NCBI RefSeq assembly: GCF_048128805.1
Contig: NC_136008.1
Span: 15,975,572 to 16,039,571, forward strand
DNA: 64,000 bases
Source: Centroberyx gerrardi
Taxonomy: Eukaryota > Chordata > Actinopteri > Beryciformes > Berycidae
Direction: 5' to 3'
The position numbers and the translations under genes are program-made. The notes under the pieces were generated by a model. It did no database searches. It saw only the letters and a list, made by a program, of their open reading frames with translations, and was not told the origin of the DNA. Positions 2,687-55,700 of the stretch are shown here, piece after piece (position 1 is the first letter of the stretch; every line of letters begins with the position of its first letter).

Positions 2687-3036
2687 TGTTCCTTGGTTAG
2701 TGTTAAAAAAGGCCAGCTATTTTTTCAGGCAGCTATTAGATGCTCTCCTCAGGACATTTCATTGAGGCAGAGCTGCGGGCAGCTAAAAAAGGACCTACGC
2801 TTATATGCCTGCATTGAGAGAATGCGCTGTTGTCTATATTCATACAGATTATTTTCAAGCTCGCTCCAGTTTTACGTCATATTTGTGTGTAGCTAAGAAA
2901 TCAAAATCTTGAATGTGAAAGAAGCTGAGTGGAATGTAGTGTGAATGTGTTAACACCGTTAACAACTTACTAAACTGTGCATTGAAGCTTCCTGTGTTCT
3001 GATAGGACACTCTGTAGCAGTTGGTAGATGGCACAT
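2687..3036 (+). repeat. 5' LTR of the BEL/Pao relic
   Basis: Begins TGTTCCTTGG and shares ordered blocks with 5320-5703: AGGCAGCTATTA, AGGACATTTC, CTAAAAAAGGACCTA, TAGTGTGAATGTGT and TCTGTAGCAG. The two LTRs differ by many substitutions and indels, so the insertion is old. The right boundary is approximate, and I found no clear target-site duplication. Confidence 0.7.
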
Positions 3037-3041
3037 ACCCA

Positions 3042-3440
3042 GCAAACAAGTCCCTGCGGGGCCACTGTGGGGTTTTTGTGGGCAGTGTGGGCTGGGGCAA
3101 ACCCACTCTAAACCCACAAGTGCCCACTCTGGTTTTGCCCATGCGGGGCCCACAGTCTTTTCCATCCTATGGGCCCCGTATGGGTTTTTTGTGGGCGGCC
3201 CACACTTGGGCAAGCCCACAGAAGGCCCATTCGGGCCCACCGTAGCTTTGCCCATGCGGGGCCCACAGTCTTTTTCCACCTATGGGCCCTACATGGTTTT
3301 TTTGTGGGCTGCCCATACTTGGGCAAGCCCACAGAAGGCCCATTCGGGCCCACCGTAGCTTTGCCCATGCGGGGCCCACAGTCTTTTTCCACCTAATGGG
3401 CCCCTTATGGGTTTTCTGTGGGCTTTCCTAGGTGTGGGCA
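3042..3440. repeat. GGGCCC-rich tandem repeat, 113-bp period
   Basis: The marker GCCCATGCGG recurs at 3137, 3250 and 3363, exactly 113 bases apart, within a tract built from the short word TGGGC and its complement. A related shorter patch is at 3577-3655. Overlapping open frames on both strands arise from the repeat and are not genes. The tract lies inside the retroelement, just after its 5' LTR. Confidence 0.85.
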
Positions 3441-5319: not shown

Positions 5320-5703
5320 TGTTAGACATATTTGGGTCGGCTGTTAAAAAGGGCAGCTATTTTACTATCAGGCAGCTATTATCCCCCTTCTCCCCCCAGG
5401 ACATTTCCTTGACGAAGATCTGCAATCACCTAAAAAAGGACCTAAGCTTATGTAATAGTCTGTCTCTGCATTGAGAGTGCTGCTGTGCTCTGTTTGCTCT
5501 GCTTCTTTTCCAAGCACACTTTAAGTTTTAAGTGTCATATTTGTGCATGCTGCTAAGAAAGCCTCACATATAATGAATACTTGCAGTTGAGAGGATTGTA
5601 GTGTGAATGTGTGAAGACGGTTTTTAAAGTTCCTCAACTTTGTACATCGAAGCCTCCTTTGTTCTGATGGGACACCCTGTAGCAGCTGGTGAACAGCATC
5701 AAG
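5320..5703 (+). repeat. 3' LTR of the BEL/Pao relic
   Basis: Begins TGTTAGACAT, about 100 bases after the readable C-terminal pol tail, where a 3' LTR should be. It aligns block by block with the copy at 2687. The right edge is estimated from where similarity stops. Confidence 0.7.
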
Positions 5704-27238: not shown

Positions 27239-27745
27239 CTAGTGAGATGTTGACATGGACCAAGCGCCCTCCATCCTCCATACAGAGAAGGCGTAGCTCA
27301 ATCTCTCATGAGCCACATAACTACAACTTGCCATTTTGGAGTCCAGCTCGTCGCTTTGCAGCACTTGGCAGAGGAAATCGATGTATCTGGCCGCGAGTTT
27401 GAGGGTCTGTATTTTGCTGAGTTTATCTGAGGGCAAAGTGGGGATAATTTTCCGCAAAGCTGCGAAAGCCTCGTTGAGTGACTGAGTCCTCTGTCGCTCC
27501 CGGACGTTGGCCATGACTCTCTGCGTCTGCAGCTCTTCGAAAGACTGGGGGCTGCTGCTGCTGGATTTCTTCCCTCTTTTCCCAGGGGTCGGGCTATCTG
27601 AATCCTCCCCGTTTTTCCTGCTTGATCTCCTTTTCCTCCCACATCTCTTCGGCTGCCTATCCAGTTCCCCCTCGCTGTTGCTCAGGCTGTCCACCGGAGA
27701 GACAGGAGAGCTGCTCGACTCTTCCCCCATAATTTCCTCAGACAT
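27239..27745 (-). CDS. twist1: Twist-family bHLH transcription factor, Twist1 type
   Basis: Nuclear transcription factor that dimerises with E proteins, binds E-boxes and directs mesenchymal, cranial neural crest and skeletal programmes. The 168-residue protein starts [18 protein letters not shown]. Basic nuclear-localisation patches lie at about 37-44 and 55-60. The bHLH domain spans about 75-128, with DNA-contacting Glu83, Arg84 and Arg86 in NVRERQRTQ and helix 2 in [18 protein letters not shown]. The C-terminal Twist/WR box is at 148-168 ([17 protein letters not shown]), ending STSH. Nothing is broken. The open frame reaches a GTG at 27751, but the first ATG is at 27745. Met6 (27730-27728) has a better initiation context and lines up with TWIST1/TWIST2 starts, so a 163-residue product is possible. 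SLSNSEGE and the bHLH favour Twist1 over Twist2. Which teleost twist1 co-orthologue (a or b) this is cannot be settled here. Synteny with tmem196, macc1 and abcb5 supports twist1. Confidence 0.96.
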
Positions 27746-27913
27746 CACCACTTGGGTAGATGGCGACCAAAAGTGTCCGAAATTATTTTCCTCTCATGAA
27801 GTTAACGAATTATTCCACCTGTAGGTCTATCTGGCGTTGAAGACACCACAGTATCCATAGATGGGGCCCGGGGAGGACAAGTCTTTTCTGATACTTGAGA
27901 AACTTAGGCAGTT

Positions 27914-37448: not shown

Positions 37449-38230
37449 CAGGTAACTGCCAAAATAAAGAACACACGTGAGTACACTAGGATACAAAGTA
37501 CATTGAAAGAAGGTGCTTCCATATGTGCAATCCTTAAGATAATTAAGCAATCACTGACTTAGAGAGAGGACTCACTGTTGGGGCAAGTTTGGCAGGAGCT
37601 TCAGTGACAAAGCCTGCTTAACCTGTTGATGTTTCATGAGAAACAGTGACTAAGGTGATGTTGTTGGCATGGAAATCTGAGTGAAAGACATAGGCGGCTT
37701 GGACTGGCTGTGGACAGGAGCACATACTCTCTGACCATAATGTCCATTCATTGGTTCGGGATATAAGGAAAAACAGACAAACCACTGAACTGTCCGTTCA
37801 GAACGTCACAGAGACACTATGGTCAGCCCTTATTACCGTAAAAATGCACTTTCGCGAGTGAAGTGGTGAAAAGAACACAGGCACAAAAAAATATGGTCAG
37901 ATGAGTCATACTTCTGCCTCCTCTCAGCAAGTGGGTGAGTACATGTGTGGCATGTCAAAAGAAGTTTGTTTCTTTTGGTTTCTTGTGGTATGGGGCCCAT
38001 TTTCCTGGCATATTTTGGTCCACTCAACGCCTTAGAGGGCAATGTAAATGCCAACAAATACAAGCCATTCTGAGTGATCATGTTCATCCTATGGTGAAAT
38101 TTCTGTCCTGATGGGAGTGGAGTCATCCAGAATAACAATGACCCCATTCATATTCATGCACAGGTGGTCACTGAAAGGTTTGACAAGTAGGAAAACAATG
38201 TAAACCATATCCCATTCACCAGATTCAAAC
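37449..38230 (+). mobile_element. Tc1/mariner DNA transposon relic
   Basis: The left end starts CAGGTAACTGCCAAAATAAAG, a terminal sequence common in fish Tc1-like elements. The plus strand then reads as a broken Tc1-type transposase. The N-terminal DNA-binding region is at about 37,575-37,740 (VGASLAGASVTKPA, then TVTKVM). The catalytic region follows (KIWSDESYFC with the second-Asp context at about 37,890, then a WGPFSWH-like block). At about 38,100-38,160 a degraded GVIQ-type segment precedes the expected third acidic residue. Several stops and frame changes make it inactive. No matching right terminal inverted repeat was found, so the element appears truncated. Confidence 0.75.
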
Positions 38231-39031
38231 ACAATTTACAGTATGCGAGATTCTAGAGCAGTGACTGAGACATAATTTTCCACCACCACCATCAAAATAC
38301 CAAATCTGTATCTTATGCAAGAACAGTGTCATATTAACACACTTTTGTTGGTGTTTACTTTAATTAGGGAGTTACCTGTTGGTGGATGGCATAGGCTTGC
38401 CAGGCCCATTATAGAGAGGCTTCAGCTCTTTTAGAAAACCCTATTCCACCCTCAGATACTCTTACACTGTTAGATATCATCAATCTTTGAACTTCAATGC
38501 ATTCCTTGGGTTAGTTGTGATAAAGAGATGTAATTTACTTTCTTGGTATAGCATATCCACTTTCCCTGATCATGTCTCGTCTACTTCTACAGATTTCCTG
38601 AATTTCCCAGGATACCTTTTGACAACTCCCAGAAATAGGGATGTTGCTTTCAGGTAGACATATGGGCATATAAATAGCTTGTAAGTGTGATTATTCAGCT
38701 GTGAGTTATAGTGTCTATGATCGTGGAGACCCAGGTGGCTTTCACATAAGCATTTGTGATTTGTCAAAAAACTGACAATATCCCATGCATTTCAATGAGA
38801 CGTATACTGATGGAAAACCAGGGGGTTCTGAAAAGTCTCTAAATCTAGCGACAAAGTCACCAAGGTGGCAACAGCGCATGTGTTTGCGGCCTTTCTCCAA
38901 AGTCTTGTGGCTGCATTGCATGATGGTCTATTGAGGCTACTGTCAGTGGAGAAACTGGTATCTCTGCCTCTTGCACAATGGATTTCCCTTTGTATGATTG
39001 TTGAACATTGTGCAAAATGGTGAGTCTTAAA
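38231..39031. other. Intergenic, no gene seen
   Basis: About 800 bases between the Tc1 relic and the rearranged block upstream of the SLC44 gene. No exon or RNA gene was recognised. Confidence 0.55.
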
Positions 39032-39373
39032 AGAAACCCTATTGCTCTTTGATTGATTGATAGATAGGCCTAGCTGAAAATTATTCTGCTATTAAACTCA
39101 CAGGTAGCTGAGCTGGAAACATCTTGACATCGCATTACGTCATTTGTCTGGTTTTGGCCCAGCCAATAGCTGTTTTTAATAGTGTTTTAGGGTGGGGGTT
39201 TTCCTTTAAATTCAAACCCTAGAAGGCCCCAGTTCCTGTGTTATAGGCTAGTCCCCATGAATTAGCTGAATCATATTCGTATATATCATATCGATATTTG
39301 CTTGTCACATAGGTTTTTTATTTTTTTTCAAGTAAAATCACTTGACAGCAGTGATAAATGTAATTGTTTTAAA
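39032..39373 (+). repeat. Segment A (first copy of duplicated flank)
   Basis: A 342-base non-coding segment running from AGAAACCCTATTGC to ATTGTTTTAAA. It recurs at 40,159-40,526 with very few substitutions and small indels. The two copies bracket the orphan SLC44 exon block in direct orientation. Confidence 0.93.
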
Positions 39374-39394
39374 GGTAGGTAGGTAGGTAGGTAG
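39374..39394 (+). repeat. (GGTA)n run at a rearrangement junction
   Basis: About five GGTA/GTAG units lie exactly between segment A and the copied SLC44 block. The source block begins with GTAG at 42,243, so the tetranucleotide probably arose or expanded at the join. It replaces the pyrimidine tract that precedes exon 6 in the real gene. Confidence 0.85.
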
Positions 39395-40158
39395 GTTTGT
39401 GTTAGTAAGTGTCCCTCTGAGTTCTGGATGCTGCCCCCTGATGCCTATGAATCTGGTTCCCAGCCCAAAAACTTCTTTGACCAGCGGTACTGTGACCCCA
39501 GCCTTGACCTGGCCACCACCGAACTGGTACAATAATAGCATAGTTTGTATTGTGTGGACTTGATCTCATAGTGCATTAACCTGGATGTATGTGCCTCTTC
39601 AGATAATTCAAGCATGTGAAGCATGTAATGTTATAATAAACTGTTGGAAAAAGGCCCTAATCAAAAGTCACAGGCTTCCTATTCTCATGTTTAATGCTAC
39701 GCTTCCTCTTTTTCAGAGTATCCAAAAGATCCTTGATGAAGAACTGTGTCCATCTTTTTATGTCCCAAGCTTATCAAGTAAAGTGCCCCTCTTTTATAAA
39801 TCCCTTTGTATACTTACCAAATCTTTGCATTCCTACCAAACATCAATTAGCCTAATTCTCATGACATATAACCAAAGTGCACAGGGTAAAGACAGAATGC
39901 TTATATATCCTGGAAATATTGAATGTAATTTTTAGTTAGACTAATGATTTGATGTTTACTTTGTCCAGCTCGAGGAAAGTGTCTGCCCAGTCTAAGTGCC
40001 CTGAACTACATCCCTTCTAACTTTACTCTGCCTGGTATGGTCTCCATCAACCACACCCTCGCAAGCCTCACAGATGCCATCGGGTTGGTACCTATCTGCA
40101 TCCTGAACGAATAATTTCTATGTTGGAACAGCCTAGAGAAAAAAAATCTTGTGTCTTC
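39391..40158 (+). pseudogene. Orphan duplicate of SLC44 exons 6-8
   Basis: A 768-base copy of 42,243-43,010, identical by eye except for two substitutions (near 39,633 and 39,805, T here against C in the gene). It contains exon 6' (39,395-39,526), exon 7' (39,717-39,777) and exon 8' (39,969-40,083) with the intervening introns, and the reading frames are intact. It lies upstream of the first recognised coding exon (40,840), so it cannot contribute to the normal product. The acceptor of exon 6' has lost its pyrimidine tract to a GGTA run. It is a partial gene duplication rather than a retrocopy because the introns are kept. Use in a transcript from a more distal promoter cannot be excluded. 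Confidence 0.9.
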
Positions 40159-40526
40159 AGAAACCCTATTGCTCTTTGATTGTCAATGGTAAACCTGTGT
40201 TTACCATTGACATTTTAGATAGGCCTAGCTGAAAATTATTCTGCTATTAAACTCACTGGTAGCTGAGCTGGAAACATCTTGACATCGCATTACGTCATTT
40301 GTCTGGTTTTGGCCCAGCCAATAGCTGTTTTTAATAGTTTTAGGGTGGGGTTTTTCCTTTAAATTCAAACCCTAGAAGGCCCCAGTTCCTGTGTTATAGG
40401 CTAGTCCCCATGAATTAGCTGAATCATATTCGTATATATCATATCGATATTTGCTTGTCACATAGGTTTTTTATTTTTTTTCAAGTAAAATCACTTGACA
40501 GCAGTGATAAATGTAATTGTTTTAAA
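40159..40526 (+). repeat. Segment A' (second copy of duplicated flank)
   Basis: Direct repeat of 39,032-39,373. The differences seen are AC(A/T)GGTAG, a 2-base deletion in TAGTGTTTTAGG, a G/T change, and a small palindromic insertion at 40,181-40,212 (arms of 14 bases around CTGT). After A' the sequence continues uniquely (CCCACACAAAG), so A' marks the original right-hand context. Confidence 0.93.
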
Positions 40527-40839
40527 CCCACACAAAGACAGTAATAATCCAATATTTGGATTTGTGAGAATTAACTAGAACTCCTGATTTATTTTATAAA
40601 CTTTGAGAATAGCCTGGCTAGTGGCAGTCAGACCTGCTGCACTGAACCACTGTTCCACGTTCGTTCATAAGCGCGCGCGCTGCATAACTGTTTAGCTTTG
40701 AATTTGAAAACAAACCGTCTCCAAATTTCCTTGGGTAACGTTAACAGTGTATGTAACCTACAAGAAAATATCGTTAATGTAAATTGAACTGAATTTCAAT
40801 GCAGGTTGGTTCTTTGCTTCAGCAAGAAAGCGTACTAAA
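40527..40839 (+). promoter_or_regulatory. Presumed 5' region of the SLC44 gene
   Basis: Contains a short CpG-rich patch (GCGCGCGCGC, about 40,671-40,680), and no clear TATA box. TTTCAATGCAG at 40,793-40,803 could be a splice acceptor for the exon carrying the start codon, in which case a non-coding first exon lies upstream. Transcription start is not visible. Confidence 0.35.
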
Positions 40840-41538
40840 ATGATTTACTCGGATGATGGTGAGTATCACTCGAGTGCAATTTTTACGCCGATTGAGTCCT
40901 GTAGTTAGATGTTGGTCACATTGCAACAGAAAATATACGCTAACGTTAGCAAAATGTCGAAACTCAAGTATGCAGAGAATGCCCTAATAACATATTATCC
41001 TATTACTCTAATATTATTGCAGGGTCTGCCGAGTTTACTGGACCGGTACTGGACCTGTTAACGCGAAGCAAAAGGTTTGTGCTGTCTTCTACAACAGACC
41101 GGAGTAGCTAGCTAGCTAACGTTACACCTAGCTATCATTTGAAAAAATATCAGTTAACATAGTGTGTGGGTTCTACGCTTCACTTTGGTTTAAGGTTCCC
41201 ATAAAATGACGAGATTTCAGAAAAACGACGCTCTAACGAAATGATTGACATGACAAAGTTCGAGATACTAAGTTAGGTTAAATGATGAACCTAGGTTAAA
41301 GTTAATGATTATTTTTTGGTCCAGAATGTAACGTTAATTGCATAAAGCGTTTAGTACGTTAGATATTCTCTTCAAAATTCAGTTATAGCATGTAGACCTA
41401 ATGTTAAATGTCTAACGTTATTTTGTCCCAGGTCGTGTACAGATATGCTGTGCTCAATTATCTTCCTCCTCGCTGTCACGGGCTTTATAGCGCTAGGAGT
41501 TATTGGTAAGAAATATTTCACCTGTAAGTTAATTCATT

Positions 41539-41618
<80 letters not shown>

Positions 41619-43017
41619 GAAGACATTTTATGGCAAGTTGTGGGCTTATGTAAACCCCCAGATAAATTGCCAAGATAGTGCTCTAATTTTGCTACTCCTA
41701 TGAGTGACCATCTATTTCAAACGCCCCCCTTTAGTCAACTCTCTTTTAAACTAAACTTGCTCTCTCTCCACTGACAGCCTGGCTACTTGGAGACTCTCGC
41801 AATATTCTGTTACCCAGGGACTCCGGTGGAATGTTTTGTGGAGCTGGAAAATATTTGTCAGTATCTTGTCTCTCTTTACATGCAAAAAACACACAAAAGA
41901 ATAATACAGTTATTACAAGGTTTTAATTGCGATTGCATTGATGAAAACCTACAAAAATCCTTCCCTTCCACTGTCAGGGACCGCCCCAACATGCTATATG
42001 TGGACTTGCTGAAGTGTGAAACGACGACTAACGTGATGCCTGCTGCGCTTGATGGTATAAAATGCCCAACAATGCAGGTAGACTTTCTTCTTCCTCTCTC
42101 ATATATGTAAAAACCCAACAATGCAGGTAAGACACAATACAAATATGATGCATGATGCTTGCCAGATAACCCCCCCCCCCACCCCTCCTTTTTTTTTCTC
42201 ATCTTTTTTTAATGACTGTCTCTGTCTTTCTCTCTCTCCTTTGTAGGTTTGTGTTAGTAAGTGTCCCTCTGAGTTCTGGATGCTGCCCCCTGATGCCTAT
42301 GAATCTGGTTCCCAGCCCAAAAACTTCTTTGACCAGCGGTACTGTGACCCCAGCCTTGACCTGGCCACCACCGAACTGGTACAATAATAGCATAGTTTGT
42401 ATTGTGTGGACTTGATCTCATAGTGCATTAACCTGGATGTATGTGCCTCTTCAGATAATTCAAGCATGTGAAGCACGTAATGTTATAATAAACTGTTGGA
42501 AAAAGGCCCTAATCAAAAGTCACAGGCTTCCTATTCTCATGTTTAATGCTACGCTTCCTCTTTTTCAGAGTATCCAAAAGATCCTTGATGAAGAACTGTG
42601 TCCATCTTTTTATGTCCCAAGCTTATCAAGTAAAGTGCCCCTCTTTTACAAATCCCTTTGTATACTTACCAAATCTTTGCATTCCTACCAAACATCAATT
42701 AGCCTAATTCTCATGACATATAACCAAAGTGCACAGGGTAAAGACAGAATGCTTATATATCCTGGAAATATTGAATGTAATTTTTAGTTAGACTAATGAT
42801 TTGATGTTTACTTTGTCCAGCTCGAGGAAAGTGTCTGCCCAGTCTAAGTGCCCTGAACTACATCCCTTCTAACTTTACTCTGCCTGGTATGGTCTCCATC
42901 AACCACACCCTCGCAAGCCTCACAGATGCCATCGGGTTGGTACCTATCTGCATCCTGAACGAATAATTTCTATGTTGGAACAGCCTAGAGAAAAAAAATC
43001 TTGTGTCTTCTACATCT

Positions 43018-43053
<36 letters not shown>

Positions 43054-46000
43054 CCTTCAGCTCTCTAATCACTGTCTACAACACCAAGCCCATACTTATG
43101 CAAATCTCTGAGGACTTTGTCTCTTCTTGGTACTGGATACTACTGTAAGTGTGATCTAAATAACTCTCATTTACCAAATAACAGACATCCATTTGTATGA
43201 CACTGATCTCTTGTGTTATTTCAGTGGTCTAATGTTGGCCATGGTCCTCAGTCTTTTCTTCATGCTGCTGTTGATGTATCCGCCCTTCATTGTGATCTCA
43301 ATATTCATTGTTGGAGTGCTAGCTCTAGGGGGCTACGGTAATACAGAACACATTTGCATTTTAATGCAATTGATTTGAATGCAAATATATCTGTTTCTAG
43401 GCTAGATTTATGATTCCATGTGATTGCGTTCCCCTCACACAGGAATATTTTACTGCTACTCAGAATATAAGTACTTCAGCACATCCAAACTGTCCATCAT
43501 GGATCTCAACTTCAGAACAAACGTCTCCGTTTACTTTCAAGTGAAGGAGACCTGGCTAGTATTCTGTGAGCTTCATAAACTATTATGTGGTGTTATGTCT
43601 TTCTATCATGAATATGGAATTTTTTGGTTGTGGTTAGTATTGTTGGGATGCTACAAACACTTATCTTTGTCTCTAGTGATCATGCTGATTGTGATTGAAG
43701 TCATTCTGGTGGTGATCCTAGACTGCTTCAGGAAGCGACTCTGTACTGCTGTGGCCCTTCTAGATGAGTCCAACAAGTGAGATTTCCACTTTCACATGAT
43801 AGTTATTGTTATGCCTGCCACAGGGCTATCCAATACACCTACAAGATCATTTGTAGATTATGTTTTGCCACTTTCAAGTTCACATTTTACGTCTTTTCTC
43901 ACTGGTGTTTTTAACGTTTCTGTAATAAGTGCTACCATTCCCCATTGCCCCTGGTTAAAACCAAAATACAACTAAAGGGGTGTCTTTGTTGCACAGGGCC
44001 ATAAGGTGCATGATGTCCACATTGGCTTACCCCCTGATCACCTTTTTACTGGTGCTGTTGTGTGGTTGCTACTGGGCAATGACTTCCTTCTTCCTGGCAA
44101 CCTCTGGAGCTCCGCTGTACAGGGTGGTGGCTCTCAACTCCTCTGCCAGTGGCTGCAGACTTATCAATAGCACAGACGAGTGTCACCCACAGGTAAAATA
44201 ATTTGACAATAGCGCTGTGTGGATTTGTTCTGTGCTTTCTAAATCACAAATAAAGTATCAAAGTGACTCTAACCTACTAGAGTTTTCCCCTCTCAACTTC
44301 CCATTTCCACCTCTTTACTCTGTTTTTCCTTTTCTTCCTTTTCCCATCAGACATTTGAATCTTCGGCCTACCCTCAATGCCCCTCTGTCCGCTGTATCTT
44401 CAATAAGTACGATGATGAAGGGGTATTCCAGCAGAACATCGTCTACCTGCATGTCTACAACACCGTTGCTTTCCTCTGGAGTGTCGTCTTTGTTATTGCC
44501 CTTGGCCAGTCCACTCTGGCAGGGACCTTTGCCTCGTACTACTGGGTGTTCAACAAGAGAGACATCCCTGCCTGCCGTGTGTACCAGGCCTTCATAAGGA
44601 CTCTATAGTAAGAGCTGCAAAACTTAACAGCATAGTGGTCTCCATAATGTGGTCCTGAACATTTTATATGTTACATACCTTTTAAAGGCACTCATATTTT
44701 TGTTGTTGTGTTTTTCTCCCTTTGAAAGCTTCCATTTTGGCTCTCTGGCATTAGGTTCACTACTGCTCACCATATTCCAGTTGCCAAGGATGATACTGGA
44801 GTGCCTTTACCACAAGTTTAAGGGTGAGGCCACCCCTAAAATTAATATTTGATACAAATTCTGATTATGTGAGTCTGTACTTCATAAACAGATCTCATTT
44901 TGGTTTTTATGTCTCCTCAGACTTTGAGGGGTCATGTGGACTGTTTGTATTCTCCCGTCTCCATTTTGGATTTTGGTGCTTTGGGCGCTTCCTGAATATC
45001 CTCAACCAAAATGCCTTTGTCATGGTAAGTCCTGTTAATGTTGCTATTCATTGACTTTGTCATCAAATACACTAATTATGTATCACTTTGCTCTGTTAGT
45101 GAAATAATGAATGTGCATATAATAATGTGTTATAGTAATGTGTGTTATTACTGTGATCATCAGATGGCCATTTATGGTGAAAACTTCTATAGTTCTGCTA
45201 GACTTGCCTCTGACCTGGTGATGAGGAATGTTGAGCGGTAGGTCTGCTGGACATTTTTCATAGGAGGGAAGTGCTTTCACATTCTGTCAGTTGTTGCTGA
45301 TATGCTCAATGTTTGTCCACAGGGTGGTGCTATTGGACCGTGTGACAGATGTGGTGCTGTTATTTTGCAAACTACTGGTGGTTGGACCAGTTGGTGAGGA
45401 AATAAAGCTGTATCTAATGTGATCAGTTTATCGGAAACTACAAATACGAGATTTAAACTCATCATATTACCTCATGACTCAAGTTTCTGTCTTCATTTCT
45501 TTCTTTCTTTCTAGGGGTGCTTTCTTTCTATGTCTTCTCTGGGAGAATCCGCTTGCCTGATGCCTTCCAGGCGGAGATGCTGAACTACTATTGGGTGCAA
45601 ATTGTTGTGAGTTCAAAAATAAATTGTGTTTGATAATGTTCACATTCTTGCCAAACTGGAATCGATTAGCACTCATATTGCTGTTTGTTTCATCTCAATA
45701 TTTAACACTAGTAAGGTGAAATAAAACAGTAAAATTTGGTTATCTGGGGGGTCATGTACTCATGACATGCTATTTACTAATAAGCAAATACCAGGGGTGT
45801 ACACATTTCTAGTGTTGCTCATTTAACACACTGTTTAATTCTGCTGTGTGCTAATGATATTTTGTCTAGATTGTGACGGTGGGAGCTTACATCATTGCTC
45901 AGGGCTTTTTCAGTGTCTACAGCATGTGTGTTAACACACTCTCCATCTGTCTTAGTGAGTACTACTGACCCAGTGCATCATTACTGAATCATCTCTATGT

Positions 46001-46194
46001 ACCAGTTACCAAAATCTCATTGTTACTCTCAACGTCATTAATGTAACCGTTGTTCTCTCCATTCTGTAGTGGAGGACCTGGAGAGGAATGATGGATCTTT
46101 GGAGAGGCCTTATTACTCCACCAGAAACCTGATGACCCTCCTTCACAAATCCAGGGGGGAGACCATAAAACAAGAAGCTGCACCTCTCTCCTAA
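40840..46194 (+). CDS. slc44a4-like: Choline-transporter-like protein (SLC44 family, CTL2/4/5 clade, most like CTL4)
   Basis: Multi-pass plasma-membrane solute carrier; relatives move choline or thiamine pyrophosphate. There are 21 coding exons: 40840-40858, 41023-41074, 41432-41505, 41778-41856, 41978-42077, 42247-42378, 42569-42629, 42821-42935, 43061-43144, 43225-43337, 43443-43565, 43677-43776, 43997-44192, 44351-44607, 44729-44823, 44921-45024, 45164-45237, 45323-45393, 45515-45606, 45870-45954, 46070-46194. All junctions are GT-AG and in phase, giving 716 aa, the family's usual length. Hallmarks in order: RSCTDMLC before TM1, CPTMQVCVSKCP in the large outer loop with sequons NFT and NHT, SEDFVSSWYWIL, KAIRCMMSTLAYPLITF, YWAMTSFFLATSG, ALGQSTLAGTFASYYW, MAIYGENF, LNYYWVQIV and the C-terminal EDLERNDGSLERPYY. 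MMST..YP and GSLERPYY point to CTL4 over CTL2/5, from memory only. In tetrapods no SLC44 gene lies between TWIST1 and MACC1. Confidence 0.93.
41544..41613. repeat. (CT)n microsatellite in SLC44 intron 3
   Basis: About 70 bases of CT repeat in the intron between coding exons 3 and 4. Confidence 0.97.
42243..43010 (+). repeat. Source block of the exon 6-8 duplication
   Basis: This part of the SLC44 gene (end of intron 5 to early intron 8) is duplicated at 39,391-40,158 over exactly 768 bases. Here the block is preceded by a normal pyrimidine tract (CTCTCTCCTTTGTAG) and followed by intron 8, so this is the functional copy. Confidence 0.93.
43021..43052. repeat. (GT)n microsatellite in SLC44 intron 8
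   Basis: About 31 bases of GT repeat just upstream of the exon 9 acceptor (CTTCAG at 43,055-43,060). Such runs near acceptors can influence splicing. Confidence 0.95.
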
Positions 46195-46569
46195 CCCTTT
46201 CTCCATCTCCGTACCCAGGTCTTCTCTGTCAGTTTCATTAAATATTCTCAGTGTTATCTGTTTGACCACTCTCTGTAGAGAGAAGTGCTCTGATGTAGTC
46301 TTTTGCTAACATATTGCCAGACTTTTGCAAAATCTCCAGTCTTGTCTTTTTTGTAATTGACAAGAAGAACATGTGACATAATCCAGAGACCAAATCTAAC
46401 CTTTGAAAATGTTTTTTTGCATTAATTATATATTTTCATTTCATTTTCAATGCATGATAAATATGCGCGAGTGCCCATGAGAAAGGTTTTTATGAGACCA
46501 GTTTTTCTCAATTCCAGCAATGTTTTTGGAGATAAGTTTTGTAGGACACTGACAAGATACATTAAATAT

Positions 46570-47030: not shown

Positions 47031-47296
47031 TAAGCTTCCCCATAAATGAAAAAGGAGGTCCAAGGCACTCAAGTGGATTAAGAAGATGCAAGCCGCAACA
47101 CGTATGTCACCAGCCAAGATAATGTTTTAGCCCAACTTAATAAAGACTCTGATAGTGGACTCTTAATCCACTTGAGTGCCTTGGACCTCCTTTTTCATTT
47201 TTGAAGACTTCAATCCCTGTCACCAAAGAGCACCAGTGGAAGATACCAAAGACACCTAAGTAGCGCTCCTCTTCTCTTTCTGTAAGCTTCCCCATA
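47031..47296. mobile_element. Small fold-back insertion with 14-bp target duplication
   Basis: The 14-mer TAAGCTTCCCCATA occurs at 47,031-47,044 and 47,283-47,296 and flanks a 238-base insertion, as a target-site duplication would. The insertion starts with one arm of a perfect 39-bp inverted repeat (47,045-47,083 and 47,161-47,199, separated by 77 bases) and then runs about 80 bases to an end reading CTCCTCTTCTCTTTCTG. A 14-base duplication suggests LINE-type endonuclease insertion, whereas the inverted repeat suggests a fold-back or MITE-like origin. I do not recognise the family. The perfect arms imply a young insertion or gene conversion. Confidence 0.7.
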
Positions 47297-47861: not shown

Positions 47862-48110
47862 CTTCTCGCTCATTTTGTGGGAGCGGTGCGGTGAAAAATC
47901 CAGGAACATCCTCTGCTGTTCAGTACTGGCTAGTCAACAGGTGAGCCAGGTGAACAGAGCGCAGCCTCCAACGCTAACACTGGCCAGCACCACCATGGCT
48001 AGGTGGAGGGCTGGCAGGGTGTCTAGACGTCTACATTCTGCTCGCACAAACTGGATGCTGACGATGCCACTGATGAATCCACAGATACAGCAGGCAGAAA
48101 ATAGAATCAT
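47862..48110 (-). pseudogene. tmem196: tmem196 remnant exon with in-frame stop
   Basis: TMEM196 is a small four-pass membrane protein encoded next to MACC1 in vertebrates. This 249-base minus-strand exon covers the third and fourth membrane segments: it opens MILFSACCICGFISG after the acceptor CTGGACTGCCAG, continues through PALHLAMVVLASVSVGGC to WLTC, and ends HKMSEK before a good donor (AAG/GTAAGC, 47,861-47,856). Codon 59 is TGA (47,936-47,934) where the family has an Arg after WLTC; a CGA to TGA change explains it. The frame then continues in register (LASTEQQRMF), so the exon is otherwise intact. No convincing exon 1/2 or terminal exon was found on the minus strand in 48.1-52.5 kb or below 47.8 kb. 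It is most likely a gene dying after duplication. Confidence 0.8.
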
Positions 48111-51100
48111 CTGGCAGTCCAGAGGAAGGAGACTGGAAGGATATACCATGATGTGTAATTTGTATCAAGCTTGAGTTAAGTATCATTCAGACCCATCTTG
48201 GTCATACTTGACTATAAATACTGTAGCAACTGAACAGCCTGTGCCATTTTTATTATAAGCCAAACGCTTATACATGGCATGTTTAATGTACATTTATGAT
48301 CAAGGGTATTGCAAGTAATATGTACAATCAGTCCTGACTTATTTTTTGGCACATAATACACCACATAATCCACAGATTAAAAACTGCAAAAAGTTGTAAA
48401 TACATGCGTAACCAATTCATAATACTTTTATAAAATAATTGCCTCATTTATTTAAAGTATTGTTTTGTATTGTAAGTATTGTAATTATATTGTTTTAACA
48501 TACACCCACTGCACTCCATATAGGAAAAGCATCTGCCTGAGAGTGCCACCAGACTCCAGGTTATCTTCCATCCTTTCATCATTCCTTCAGATGAAGTCGG
48601 GTAAGAGTTGTATATCACCTTCAGTCTTGGGACAGTTTATGCTTTGAGTTGGAAAAGCATTAATCCATATGATACACAGGTCACCTGAACATGACAGGGC
48701 CTTGTTGCCCAGGTGTTGATGTGCTGATGTAATCCTCCAACTCTCTATGTTTGACTGTGAATTTTCCTTGGCAATGGAATCTTTAAATCCTCTTTTGCTG
48801 TTAATGAAAATGTTCAGGAACAATGTAATACCTGTAGAGAGTACAATATATAGTTAAAGCTGAATACCAAATAATTTTTCTATATATTACAAATACTGTA
48901 AGGTATAGGACTCACAGTAGGTCAGATTATAAGGAATATTTATACATTAACCAACAATCTGGTATATTTTGGATAGATGCTGTTATTAGTAGAGCAGCTA
49001 TTTTTATCTGAAATGATGGGCTGAAATGAACTTTGAAGTTTCTTAGGGTGGCCTATATTGTCTAATTTAGAGTTAGATGTAATCACATTGCGTAGCCAGT
49101 CCTTTGTGTATAGCTGGCAAAGTCTCTAGATGACCAAAATAATAAATGGTAAGAGGTGGAATATTCACTTCAGTCTTTACAAAAATGTAATGCCTTGTAC
49201 AGGCATAGATATTCATAATAATAAACTGTTATCTGCTCTCCCACTCTAACATTGCCTCGGATGCTATAAAAGGCCCCCACAACAAAAGTGGTCATATTTC
49301 ATTAGCCACAAAGTGTGATGCCTCAGTGCATCTGAAAAAAGGGAGACCTAAAAAGGCAGTGTCCATTTTTTCCTTGGTTGCCTTGGGCATTTTTCATTTT
49401 TTCCCCCCTCGTTTCACAGTAATGGGTGCCTCGGCTGAGTCCACCCCCTGTTGTGACAGCACAAGATACACTTTGACACAGCCTACAGTTAGGTGGTGAC
49501 AACCTGCCTTCTTCTCTCATTTTCCTATCATTGATGACATTTGAAACAAGGAGGCACACTCAAGAGCTCATTTGTACATTTTGTAAGCCTACAATCTGCT
49601 GGATTTTGAACTCTGTAAAGGTAATCAGTAATAATTAATTGATTTACATTTACATTAAGGTGACCTTCCCAATCCTGAAAGGATCTGAAAGTTATATCAC
49701 ATTTGAATTAATTCACAGTCATCTTATGGTAGTGTTTTGACAGCAGAGCAATATTAATAACAAACATCCACCTTAGCTGAAGGGTCTCATAGGTGCATGC
49801 TGTAGATACTTTAATTCAGTTGAATAAGTGTGGATGACAGAGAATTCATCCTGTAGTTGAGATTGATTTCAGTACATCAGACTATGTTCATCATCTTAGC
49901 TGTTACAGCTACAGCAGTAATGTTCAATATCTGATATTTAATAATTTAATCATTAACCTTTGACTCCTTAACTAAACGTAAAACAAAGCTGTTTAACGAT
50001 GATGAATCACATTTCTGAGCCAGAGGATCTAGATAATCTGGCTTTGAACTGAGAATCCTTCCTCTGAACTGCCCCTCACCCATTCTTAACTCTCACCAAA
50101 ACAGTAACCCTTTGTCCCGTGTCCCCTAATGAATTGGAAGGATGGAGTGAGCGCAGAGCAGTGCACTCCACAGGCCAGAGGGAGTCCAAACTCGACATTA
50201 GTTTCATTTCAGCAGTACCCTGCTCGTACAACATTTAACACAGTAATTGTGGTCGACTGTAACTGTTCTACCATCAGCTTAAGGTCAAGGTATATAATCA
50301 AGTTTTGAAGTCAGTCAGTTAAAGTTATAGTTCATACAGCTGACTTCATGATACTCTCAATCTGGTATTTTTGACTGCTCTTTGCATCTCCCCCTTTCAT
50401 TGTAAGTTCTGACTGCTAGAACTGGACTTCCTTAATGGTTCAGGAGAAATTACACTGTCCAATTAATTGGAGGGTTTTTACAATCAGTCAGAGAAAATGT
50501 TTTTCCCATTGAAAACTATCCCGCTAAATTATGTGGTACTGTTCCCTAATTGATTTTCACTTACTGCCAGAGCAATGACATATCTCTGGCTGACAAGGAG
50601 GTTTATAAAAGGGATATAAAACAAATAAGGATATGGCCCCTCTGTCTGATGGATGTTTATTTAAAATTATTGTTATTTTACTGAGAAAAAATATAACATC
50701 TCAGGAGTGAAGCGCAGATGATTTCCCTTTTGTCTCCTCACTATACAACTCTGGCCTGTGAAAGGATTCTTAGTCACCATAAATACATTAAACACAATGT
50801 TTAATGTCACAGCTTTTCAGCTCTTTTCTGCAACTTGAATGCACTGAGCCAGTCCTTGTCTTGACAGGATGTACTTGGTTCACAGCTTTTCAACTGCCAT
50901 TGATGGTCCCTTTAAAGTCTTTTATACAAAATGATCCTACATTCTCCTCAACCCTCACAAAAATATTTTTAAATATGGAAGCAAAACTACATACACTCAC
51001 TCTCTGAGAGGTCAGACATTAGGTCAATTGATTCTGTTGTTTGATATCTTTTCTTTTTACTTATTTGATTTGCTTTTCTGTGAGAGGAAACTGCAGGTGC

Positions 51101-52708: not shown

Positions 52709-55700
52709 CTAGGTTTTGGGGTAAGCAGAAGCTCGAAGGATATCTAGACAGTTCACTGTGATGAGAGCTCCGGTCAGCTGCCTCCACTGTCTGGTTACAG
52801 GGTTCTTCATTTTGTCCAAGACCAGGTGGAGGTCCTGGATCATGTCCCTGTAGCTGTCTCCATAGCGCCGACTCCAGGAGTACAGGAAGTCATAGGCAGG
52901 TTTCCACATTGACTAAAACAGAACAGGAAAGACCCAAATACTGAATCAATTTGTAAACTAAATTTGCATCACACTCACAGCACGTTAGTATGGCTGATGC
53001 AAAAAAAAGAGTTCTGTGTCATTTATATCCATTATTTACTGTATCAATTCATACTTTAGTTATATTAAAGTAAACTGACCTGGGCACTGACTTCACCATT
53101 CTTCCCTCGGTGTGGTGCCTCATAGCCAGCTATCTGAGCACTGGAGAGTTTTCCAATTTTCTCAGCGAGCTCCCGCCATCGACTACCCAGCTCTACTGCG
53201 GTGGACAGAATGACTGTATTCTGAATCAACTGTGCCACAAGACTCAAAGAGTCCATCTTCAAGAGACCCTACAATGATAACCACATAGAAAAGCTGTAGC
53301 ACAACCATGGAAAGCAGAAGAAGACTAAGTTGGAGCAGACAGGCTTTTAAATTGCTATATATATGAGTGGTGGGTTGTGTGCATGTCCATTGTTTTGTGA
53401 GTTTGTTTTACTTTGAAGATTCAGTAACTGCAGTGATTTCTCCTGAATGTAGGGCACCCAAAGAGTTTTTTTCCCAATGTTGCCTGCCTGCTTGAAAAGT
53501 TAAATAAAAAAAACTTCCTCCTTCAATAACAAGCTAATTTTATCATAATTTGAAATGTATTGGTTTTTTTCTACTTACAACCATAAGCTCATGTTGGAAC
53601 TTTTTCCTGCTCTTCTCGGCGTGGCAGTCTTCCTTCAGTTTTTCCAGTACACAGGCTACCTTATCAGCTTCGGTTTCAGCATACCTCCGTGTGATGGTGT
53701 CCAGCGACAGGTTGCAGTACCCAAGGGCATCAGCAAAACCTCTCCAGCTGGTTATGTGTTCAGTGACCAATGTCTGGATGGCTGAGTACATATACGTAAG
53801 CTTCTTGAAGGGCAGTGTCATGTTGTCCAGGAGAACCTCTGTGGTGATATGAATGCCAGTGAAGTCAATCACCTGGTCTCTGGTAATGAGCTTGACATTT
53901 TTGCAGTGGACCAAGCCAGTCCTGCCTCGGAGGAATCCAATGTACCACTCTTTTACCTTTGAATTGCCCACTGACCTAACAGTCTCTCTGGACAGGAGAG
54001 CCACTGTGTCCCCCTTGAAGTACTCCAGAAGATACTCTACTCGTGGCTGACGGAGCACTGACTTTAGGGCTACCCCATACCATTGTAGGTTCACAGATCT
54101 ATTTTGAAATTTGGGGAAATCTGGAACAGCTTCTTCAGGAATGGGTAAGGATCTTGCCATCTCCTTTTGCCTGTCCATTTGCCTTGGTGCTCGCTTTTCT
54201 GACCGAATGGGTGCAGCTACAGGGGAAGGCATCTGGAAACGTGTGATAGTTACAGTTTTTGATTCCTTCACTTGTAGATCTAATTTGAAGGGAGTCATAT
54301 GTGCATTACCAGCATGAGATAATGCAACTGGTAGATGCAAAATTTTCCCGATTTTGAGTTGACTTTGTCTCACGTCTTTAATTTTGTCCTCAGCTTTGAT
54401 TTCAAACTTTGAGTCTGTGACACTAATGGCAATATGCAGGTCATTCAGTTTGTCTGGTTTAAACTGACGTTTTCCCCAGAGCTGCAACACAAGTGGAGGC
54501 AAGTTTTTGTTGCCCCTATGGATATCTGAAAATGGAAGCCTTGGTGGAATATCATCATGACAGCAGACAACCATTACAACCTTGAAGGACGGATGAATGT
54601 ACCTGGGACCATAAACTGCTACAGTGATTTGACGGTCAAGGTAATCCCAGACTGATGTGGCAGGGGACTGGATAACAGTGGCCTCTGCAGCTGCAATAAC
54701 ATAAAAATGTGTCTTCAGATCCTGCAGCTTCATCTGCATAATGTTCTTGTATATGTAACAGTCCTTTACTTTGTGATAAGGTCCCTCTCTTTTGTTCGAC
54801 ACTAGCGCAACCAGGGTGGTCATCACCTGACTTAATGGGTCACTCTTAACCTGTCCTGCTAGCTTCATCTCCAGAGAGATACATTCCTTTGTGTTGGGGT
54901 TGCTGAGGCTCACTTCCAGAAGTGGACTCATGGTTGTCATGTAGTTGTTGTTGAGTCCATGAGGAGGGTCTAGCATTGCTTTCAATGCAATCTCCTGAAC
55001 TTCTCCAGGAGGAACATGGCCTTCTGGGACATGGATACTAATTTCTGAGTCTGGTAATTGTAATGACCCTCCAGTGTGACCTATCTTGCAGACAACCTGA
55101 GAGTCAGTGGCCTGGGTCTGAGCCCATCCGGGGCTCTGGCTCATCAGACCCAGGTCCAGGCATGACCGAGTTAACTGCCTGTGGCTCAGCCAGGCCATTT
55201 TATAGGCCTCCCTGTCATTCTTTAGCCACTCAAAATCTGGGTTCAAAACTGGCCCAGGTGGTTTGAGACCTTTTTCCCTTTTGGACTCCTTTCTCTCCAA
55301 GTCATCCAGAATGTCTGATGCGCTCCTCCATCTCCCAGATCGGTTGGTGACCTTGCGTTTGTTTTCCAAAAAATTCCCCAGGTTGCCTTCATCTGAAGAT
55401 GTGCTTATGGCATCATCGTTATTTGTGTCCAAAGGGTTTGCGGGGTCCTCTTTTAGATTTGATGTGTTGGGAATATGCTTTTCTGTATCGCTGTGTACAA
55501 TGTCATCTAAGAAGGGATTGGATCCAGATAGTTTGTTCCAGAATGGATTAGTTGTTTGAGATGAATGTGAGACTTCTGGCTGTAAAACTGGCCACTCTGA
55601 ATGCTTTGTCACTTGTGAAATATATCTACCTGTAAAAACATTGAAATTTGTACAATAAGTCAGTGTTAACAGCATGTTTTACAGTCAGAAACGCAAGCTG

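Follow-up and report, generated by a model that had tools for sequence, protein, structure and literature searches.

Two duplicated segments that surround a segment of normal copy number, with the joins in cis, define the human rearrangements called DUP-NML-DUP (PMC6258378; PMC11658439; both cited in part). In the section of PMC6258378 relevant here, four cases in which arrays had shown two duplications on either side of a diploid segment turned out to be a duplication carrying a nested deletion. The region upstream of the SLC44-type gene described below has this layout in the present assembly: two repeated segments lie around a single-copy segment, and two novel joins occur in cis. Both copies are in direct orientation. 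As compared to the human cases, in the passages of these papers that describe them, the unit is small (2.9 kb) and was found by sequence rather than by array. Duplication with a nested deletion is an already described human class, and the present case is an ordinary kind of event; it provides a base-resolved, apparently young example of how partial gene copies originate, and its significance is otherwise local.

The FoSTeS/MMBIR model, as presented in the cited part of PMC2583991, is similar in that the order of the blocks is explicable by two switches, and dissimilar in that the joins at this locus are without in-register microhomology. Partial gene duplication and exon shuffling through tandem duplications in Drosophila yakuba (PMC5460883, results cited in part) likewise involve part of a gene duplicated beside its source, whereas the fragment reported here is without the promoter-like stretch. 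The locus also resembles the heterotype false exon gains of genome assemblies (PMC9516828) in its low divergence and in exons repeated beside the source gene, and differs from them, as far as the cited section describes them, in that the join has neither a gap nor any overlap. Duplications of protruding ends at nicked breaks, as described in part of PMC5730883, are on a smaller scale than the present locus.

The arrangement occurs in a window of 64 kb (i.e., the whole stretch of DNA analysed) that does not contain a single N. The blocks follow one another in the order flank, A, a 17-nt GGTA run, a copy of B, A′, exons 1–5 of the gene and the source of B, where A′ is the counterpart of A located directly upstream of the gene's CpG-rich stretch, and S denotes that stretch together with exons 1–5 (Table 1). 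A and B are present twice and S once. This A–B–A′ order had been proposed in the initial annotation of the sequence, and self-comparison of the window with base-level alignments confirmed it to the base, including block lengths and coordinates; the self-comparison also supports the view taken there that both repeated blocks come from one locus. In the self-BLAST, B gave E = 0 and the main piece of A (39061–39373) E = 6.6e-155, so the copies are not due to chance. The two instances of B, both 768 bp long, differ in two bases (2/768), as had been counted by eye and is now borne out by alignment; on both occasions, the upstream copy has a T where the gene has a C. Since exons 6, 7 and 8 equal their copies in three out of three comparisons, both mismatches are intronic. 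A and A′ proved as similar as they had appeared: aligned end to end, they show two substitutions, a gap of 2 nt and a complex indel of 28 nt; the aligner splits this indel into 23 + 5, and its extra bases occur only in A′. BLAST of the left flank (38400–39031) against the window returned, besides itself, only matches with E ≥ 0.4, and the self-comparison (rows of more than 60 columns, E up to 1e-5) yielded no further copies of SLC44 exons in the 64-kb window beyond B. As a candidate dispersed repeat, A was rejected: there is no third copy in the window, the other matches having E ≥ 0.067 or being due to its own hairpin.

Table 1. Features of the rearranged region and its source gene (positions are those of the window).
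Feature	Coordinates	Strand	Description	Remark
Left flank	38500..39031	.	Ends GAGTCTTAAA at A boundary	Single copy in window
A, first copy	39032..39373	+	342 bp	Base-level alignment and window self-BLAST
Join 1	39374..39390	+	17-nt insert GGTAGGTAGGTAGGTAG between A and B copy	GGTA-type run
B copy	39391..40158	+	Exons 6′, 7′ and 8′ with introns	768 bp
Exon 6′	39395..39526	+	132 bp	Identical to exon 6
Exon 7′	39717..39777	+	61 bp	Identical to exon 7
Exon 8′	39969..40083	+	115 bp	Identical to exon 8
Join 2	40158..40159	.	B copy end fused directly to A′ start	Blunt
A′, second copy	40159..40526	+	368 bp	Followed by remainder of the gene's upstream region
Perfect hairpin	40181..40212	.	14-bp arms, 4-nt CTGT loop	Inside A′, missing from A
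S	40527..42242	+	CpG-rich stretch and exons 1–5	Missing between A and B copy
Intact SLC44-type gene	40840..46194	+	21 coding exons	716 aa, ATG to stop
B source	42243..43010	+	Gene exons 6–8 with introns	768 bp

The exons of the source gene were placed by eye and then checked computationally: its introns have GT and AG ends in 20 out of 20 cases and the frame is continuous over the 21 exons. The upstream copy leaves this reading frame unbroken. The gene product matched the Pfam family Choline_transpo (PF04515) with 265.2 bits, against a cut-off of 26.9, and its solved relatives (by sequence, at E ≤ 0.001) are two distinct chains of Choline transporter-like protein 1, 7wwb (E = 6e-44) and 9qu3. 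Judged by these similarities, the gene is assigned, at the family level, to the SLC44 choline-transporter-like genes. The ratio of observed to expected CpG is 0.66–1.08 in four 500-bp bins from 40250 to 41499, 0.58 in 41250–41749, and 0.16–0.38 in all other bins of the scan, which covered 38500–43749; the CpG-rich, promoter-like stretch around exon 1, presumably the promoter of the gene, is thus mostly inside S.

The two joins are of a different nature. At the first, the insert GGTAGGTAGGTAGGTAG matches neither parent and repeats the GTAG that opens B; its GGTA run is the only run of GGTAGGTAGG or CCTACCTACC in the 64-kb window. The homology of A starts exactly at the second, blunt join and stops exactly at the first, and because its edges coincide with the joins, the four homology edges reduce to two joins. 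In register, microhomology amounts to 0 bp on either side at both joins. This is at odds with the initial annotation, in which microhomology had been suspected in a GTAG at one join and a GTCTT shared near the other: the GTAG belongs to B itself, A′ being followed by CCCACAC instead, and the two GTCTT words are offset from each other by a few bases. Amongst random pairs of 12-mers from the region, 6.5% share some 5-mer and 1.5% some 6-mer by chance. The insert at the first join may have been copied from the edge of B during joining, or it may have grown later by slippage. In Caenorhabditis elegans, according to the cited part of PMC5068794, polymerase-theta inserts are templated from the flanks, with snap-back copies accounting for a minor part.

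Four substitutions separate the copies in 1079 aligned bases, i.e., a divergence of 0.37% (95% CI 0.10–0.95%), counted over the segments aligned by BLAST (768 bases in B and 311 in A; the initial 29 bases of A, which do not differ from A′, are excluded); the near-identity claimed before is supported by this figure. Judged by such low divergence, the duplication appears to be young. A value of 0.37% is similar in magnitude to the diversity between alleles of outbred fish and is, therefore, compatible with a polymorphism as well as with merged haplotypes. Events are distributed as four in 342 bases between A and A′ and two in 768 between the two copies of B (Fisher p = 0.077; p = 0.33 for substitutions only), so that a difference in age between A and B is not significant.

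We favour, at about an even chance of being correct, a local germline rearrangement in which a tandem duplication was followed by a nested deletion sealed by end joining, in the order and by the type of repair pathway that we infer here. A 2852-bp unit (40159–43010), which begins with A′ and ends midway through intron 8, would have been doubled head to tail, which would yield the blunt join between B and A′. A nested deletion of 1716 bp (40527–42242) would then have stripped S from the first copy, and would have been sealed with the 17-nt insert that iterates the GTAG of the B start, as NHEJ or polymerase theta can do. The second copy would keep the gene whole, while the first would be left as a fragment. 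The layout modelled on these two steps (flank–A′–insert–B–A′–S–B–flank) departs from the observed 5501 bases by four mismatches and three gaps (23, 5 and 2 nt), all three of which fall within A; the 17-nt insert in it was taken from the observed sequence and hence constitutes no prediction. The earlier contention that one plain tandem duplication is insufficient for the A–B–A′ order is correct. Fork switching, which had been advanced in its place, does yield the observed product, but is not required, since duplication with a nested deletion gives the identical one. By construction, two template switches result in the same string, and a single haplotype cannot tell them from duplication plus deletion.

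The two-step reading draws its support from the coincidence of four homology edges at two joins, the 0 bp of microhomology and the 17-nt insert at one of the joins. In the part of PMC6258378 that deals with mechanism, NHEJ is recognised by blunt joints, microhomology that is absent or of 1–4 bp, and small indels; a blunt nested-deletion junction was common to two unrelated carriers in that study. At this locus, the blunt second join and the GTAG-iterating insert may be such marks, although later microsatellite growth would look alike and blunt joins can arise in ways other than end joining. The GGTA run may be such later growth, which would be a point against the two-step reading. It also counts against two steps that template switching needs one event, not two, and that in PMC6258378, as far as cited, most duplications are attributed to template switching in series and microhomology is enriched at their junctions; the sole resolved duplication junction described there amongst the nested-deletion cases had 3 bp of microhomology, and blunt joins also occurred in the group with duplications only.

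The main competitor is a single replication event (FoSTeS/MMBIR) in which the template was switched twice: on reaching the end of A, the fork would have moved ahead to B, copied 768 bp, gone back to the start of A and then completed replication normally. It would account for the product in a single event, and segments of one locus are indeed found in an order beyond that of one tandem duplication; moreover, DUP-NML-DUP represents 5% of the MECP2 duplications in the cited results of PMC11658439. A pure (TG)n tract follows the right edge of B at a distance of 12 bp, and a T run precedes the left edge by 45 bp, either of which could stall a fork, but this proximity carries little weight: one of the five tested edges is within 15 bp of a tract, as are approximately 2.6% of the positions in 38000–46500. 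The model calls for 2–5 bp of microhomology, and Gu et al. (PMC2583991, in the portion cited) report 2–5 nt at every sequenced PLP1 junction, whereas both joins here have 0 bp. Because the FoSTeS model needs microhomology at the switch, we weakly prefer the two steps with end joining, which, on the sequence of the joins, appears to fit at least as well as fork switching, and we regard the replicative event as rather unlikely, albeit a credible competitor. If instead the deletion and the intact gene resided on different haplotypes, the assembly could have placed a haplotype with the 1.7-kb deletion (flank–A–insert–B–rest) before the normal haplotype. The divergence of 0.37% (CI 0.10–0.95%) is compatible with two alleles of an outbred fish, and the edge of B is near the (TG)n tract, at which a contig may break off. 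In the cited part of PMC9516828, false duplications make up 4 to 16% of the sequence in older assemblies for three species, with heterotype cases as the main source and false exon gains as one type. Several of the examples given there adjoin assembly gaps, whereas this window is without any N; the overlap between B and A′ is 0 bp, so that a false join would not be explained by any shared word, and a real deletion allele carrying the insert would still be required. We consider an artefact improbable.

Allelic differences also enter into a further scenario, in which two alleles, one already with the nested deletion, underwent exchange or were joined end to end; the product would be the same, but the differences between A and A′ would be older and allelic. 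It would agree with the larger number of events per base in A/A′ (four in 342) than in B/B′ (two in 768), but this difference is not significant and no deletion allele was seen; we regard such an exchange as very unlikely. It is more unlikely still, to the point of being hardly conceivable, that A is a mobile element that inserted twice, separately. A is repeated and its outer flank is not, as such insertions would have it; however, the edges of A coincide exactly with the joins of B, and a search of 38000–44000 with Rfam, which is a library of RNA families rather than of mobile elements, gave no matches at the gathering score.

In the upstream copy, the pyrimidine tract of the acceptor of exon 6′ is replaced by the GGTA run, with four pyrimidines out of 16, against 16 out of 16 in the acceptor of exon 6. 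With a weight matrix built on the 20 acceptors of the gene itself, and with each acceptor omitted from the matrix used to score it, exon 6 obtained 11.2 and its copy −4.7, below all 20 true acceptors, although the matrix is crude in that two of these also have negative scores (−0.8 and −3.7). The acceptor of exon 6′ scored −4.5 when the full matrix was applied, a value equalled or exceeded by 64% of the 4163 plus-strand AG sites (the 20 acceptors excluded). The acceptors of exons 7′ and 8′ are unchanged from those of the gene. Given the damaged acceptor and the absence of the promoter-like CpG-rich stretch, the copy is probably inert and the fragment is probably not expressed; it could nevertheless mislead annotation into an extra SLC44 fragment. 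Amongst exons 2–12, exon 8′, should it be transcribed at all, would be compatible in phase with exons 3, 5, 9 and 10, but not with exon 2, and in a plain tandem duplication, splicing from exon 8 to the next exon 2 would be out of frame (phase 2 to phase 1). This raises the thought, to which we give little credence, that the deletion was compensatory, the nested loss having silenced the upstream copy in a two-step break and mend of the gene. Were it true, the plain duplication would have placed a second promoter and exons 1–8 before the gene, and the break and mend would have been caught while the copies were still 99.6% identical.

The hairpin in A′ starts 22 bases inside the blunt join. A scan of the window for perfect inverted repeats (arms ≥ 13 bp, loop ≤ 12 nt) gave eight matches, six in a TA run and two overlapping at the hairpin, which is, therefore, the only one outside the TA run. 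Its arms do not occur elsewhere in the window, so neither gain nor loss is favoured for the 28-nt indel between A and A′. The hairpin may have been left by snap-back synthesis during the same repair, or it may be a polymorphism of older date. Downstream of the gene, another inverted repeat (47049–47195) was noticed by eye, with arms of approximately 34 bp (47049–47082 and 47162–47195) and a spacer of 79 bases; it is possibly a small foldback or mobile element.

The neighbours of the SLC44 gene, identified with Pfam, are on the minus strand: a helix-loop-helix gene (27239–27793), which we take to be Twist-like, and an SH3BP4-type gene with UPA and DEATH domains (53543–55678), presumably MACC1-like. 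A third neighbour, an open reading frame on the same strand (47934–48164), which had no Pfam match, is assumed to be TMEM196-like. Elsewhere in the window, a tandem array with a period of approximately 112 bp (3059–3424; about three copies, 78–84% identity) is open in several frames, and a direct repeat (2701–3025 and 5342–5690; 72% identity over 356 columns) is perhaps an old mobile element.
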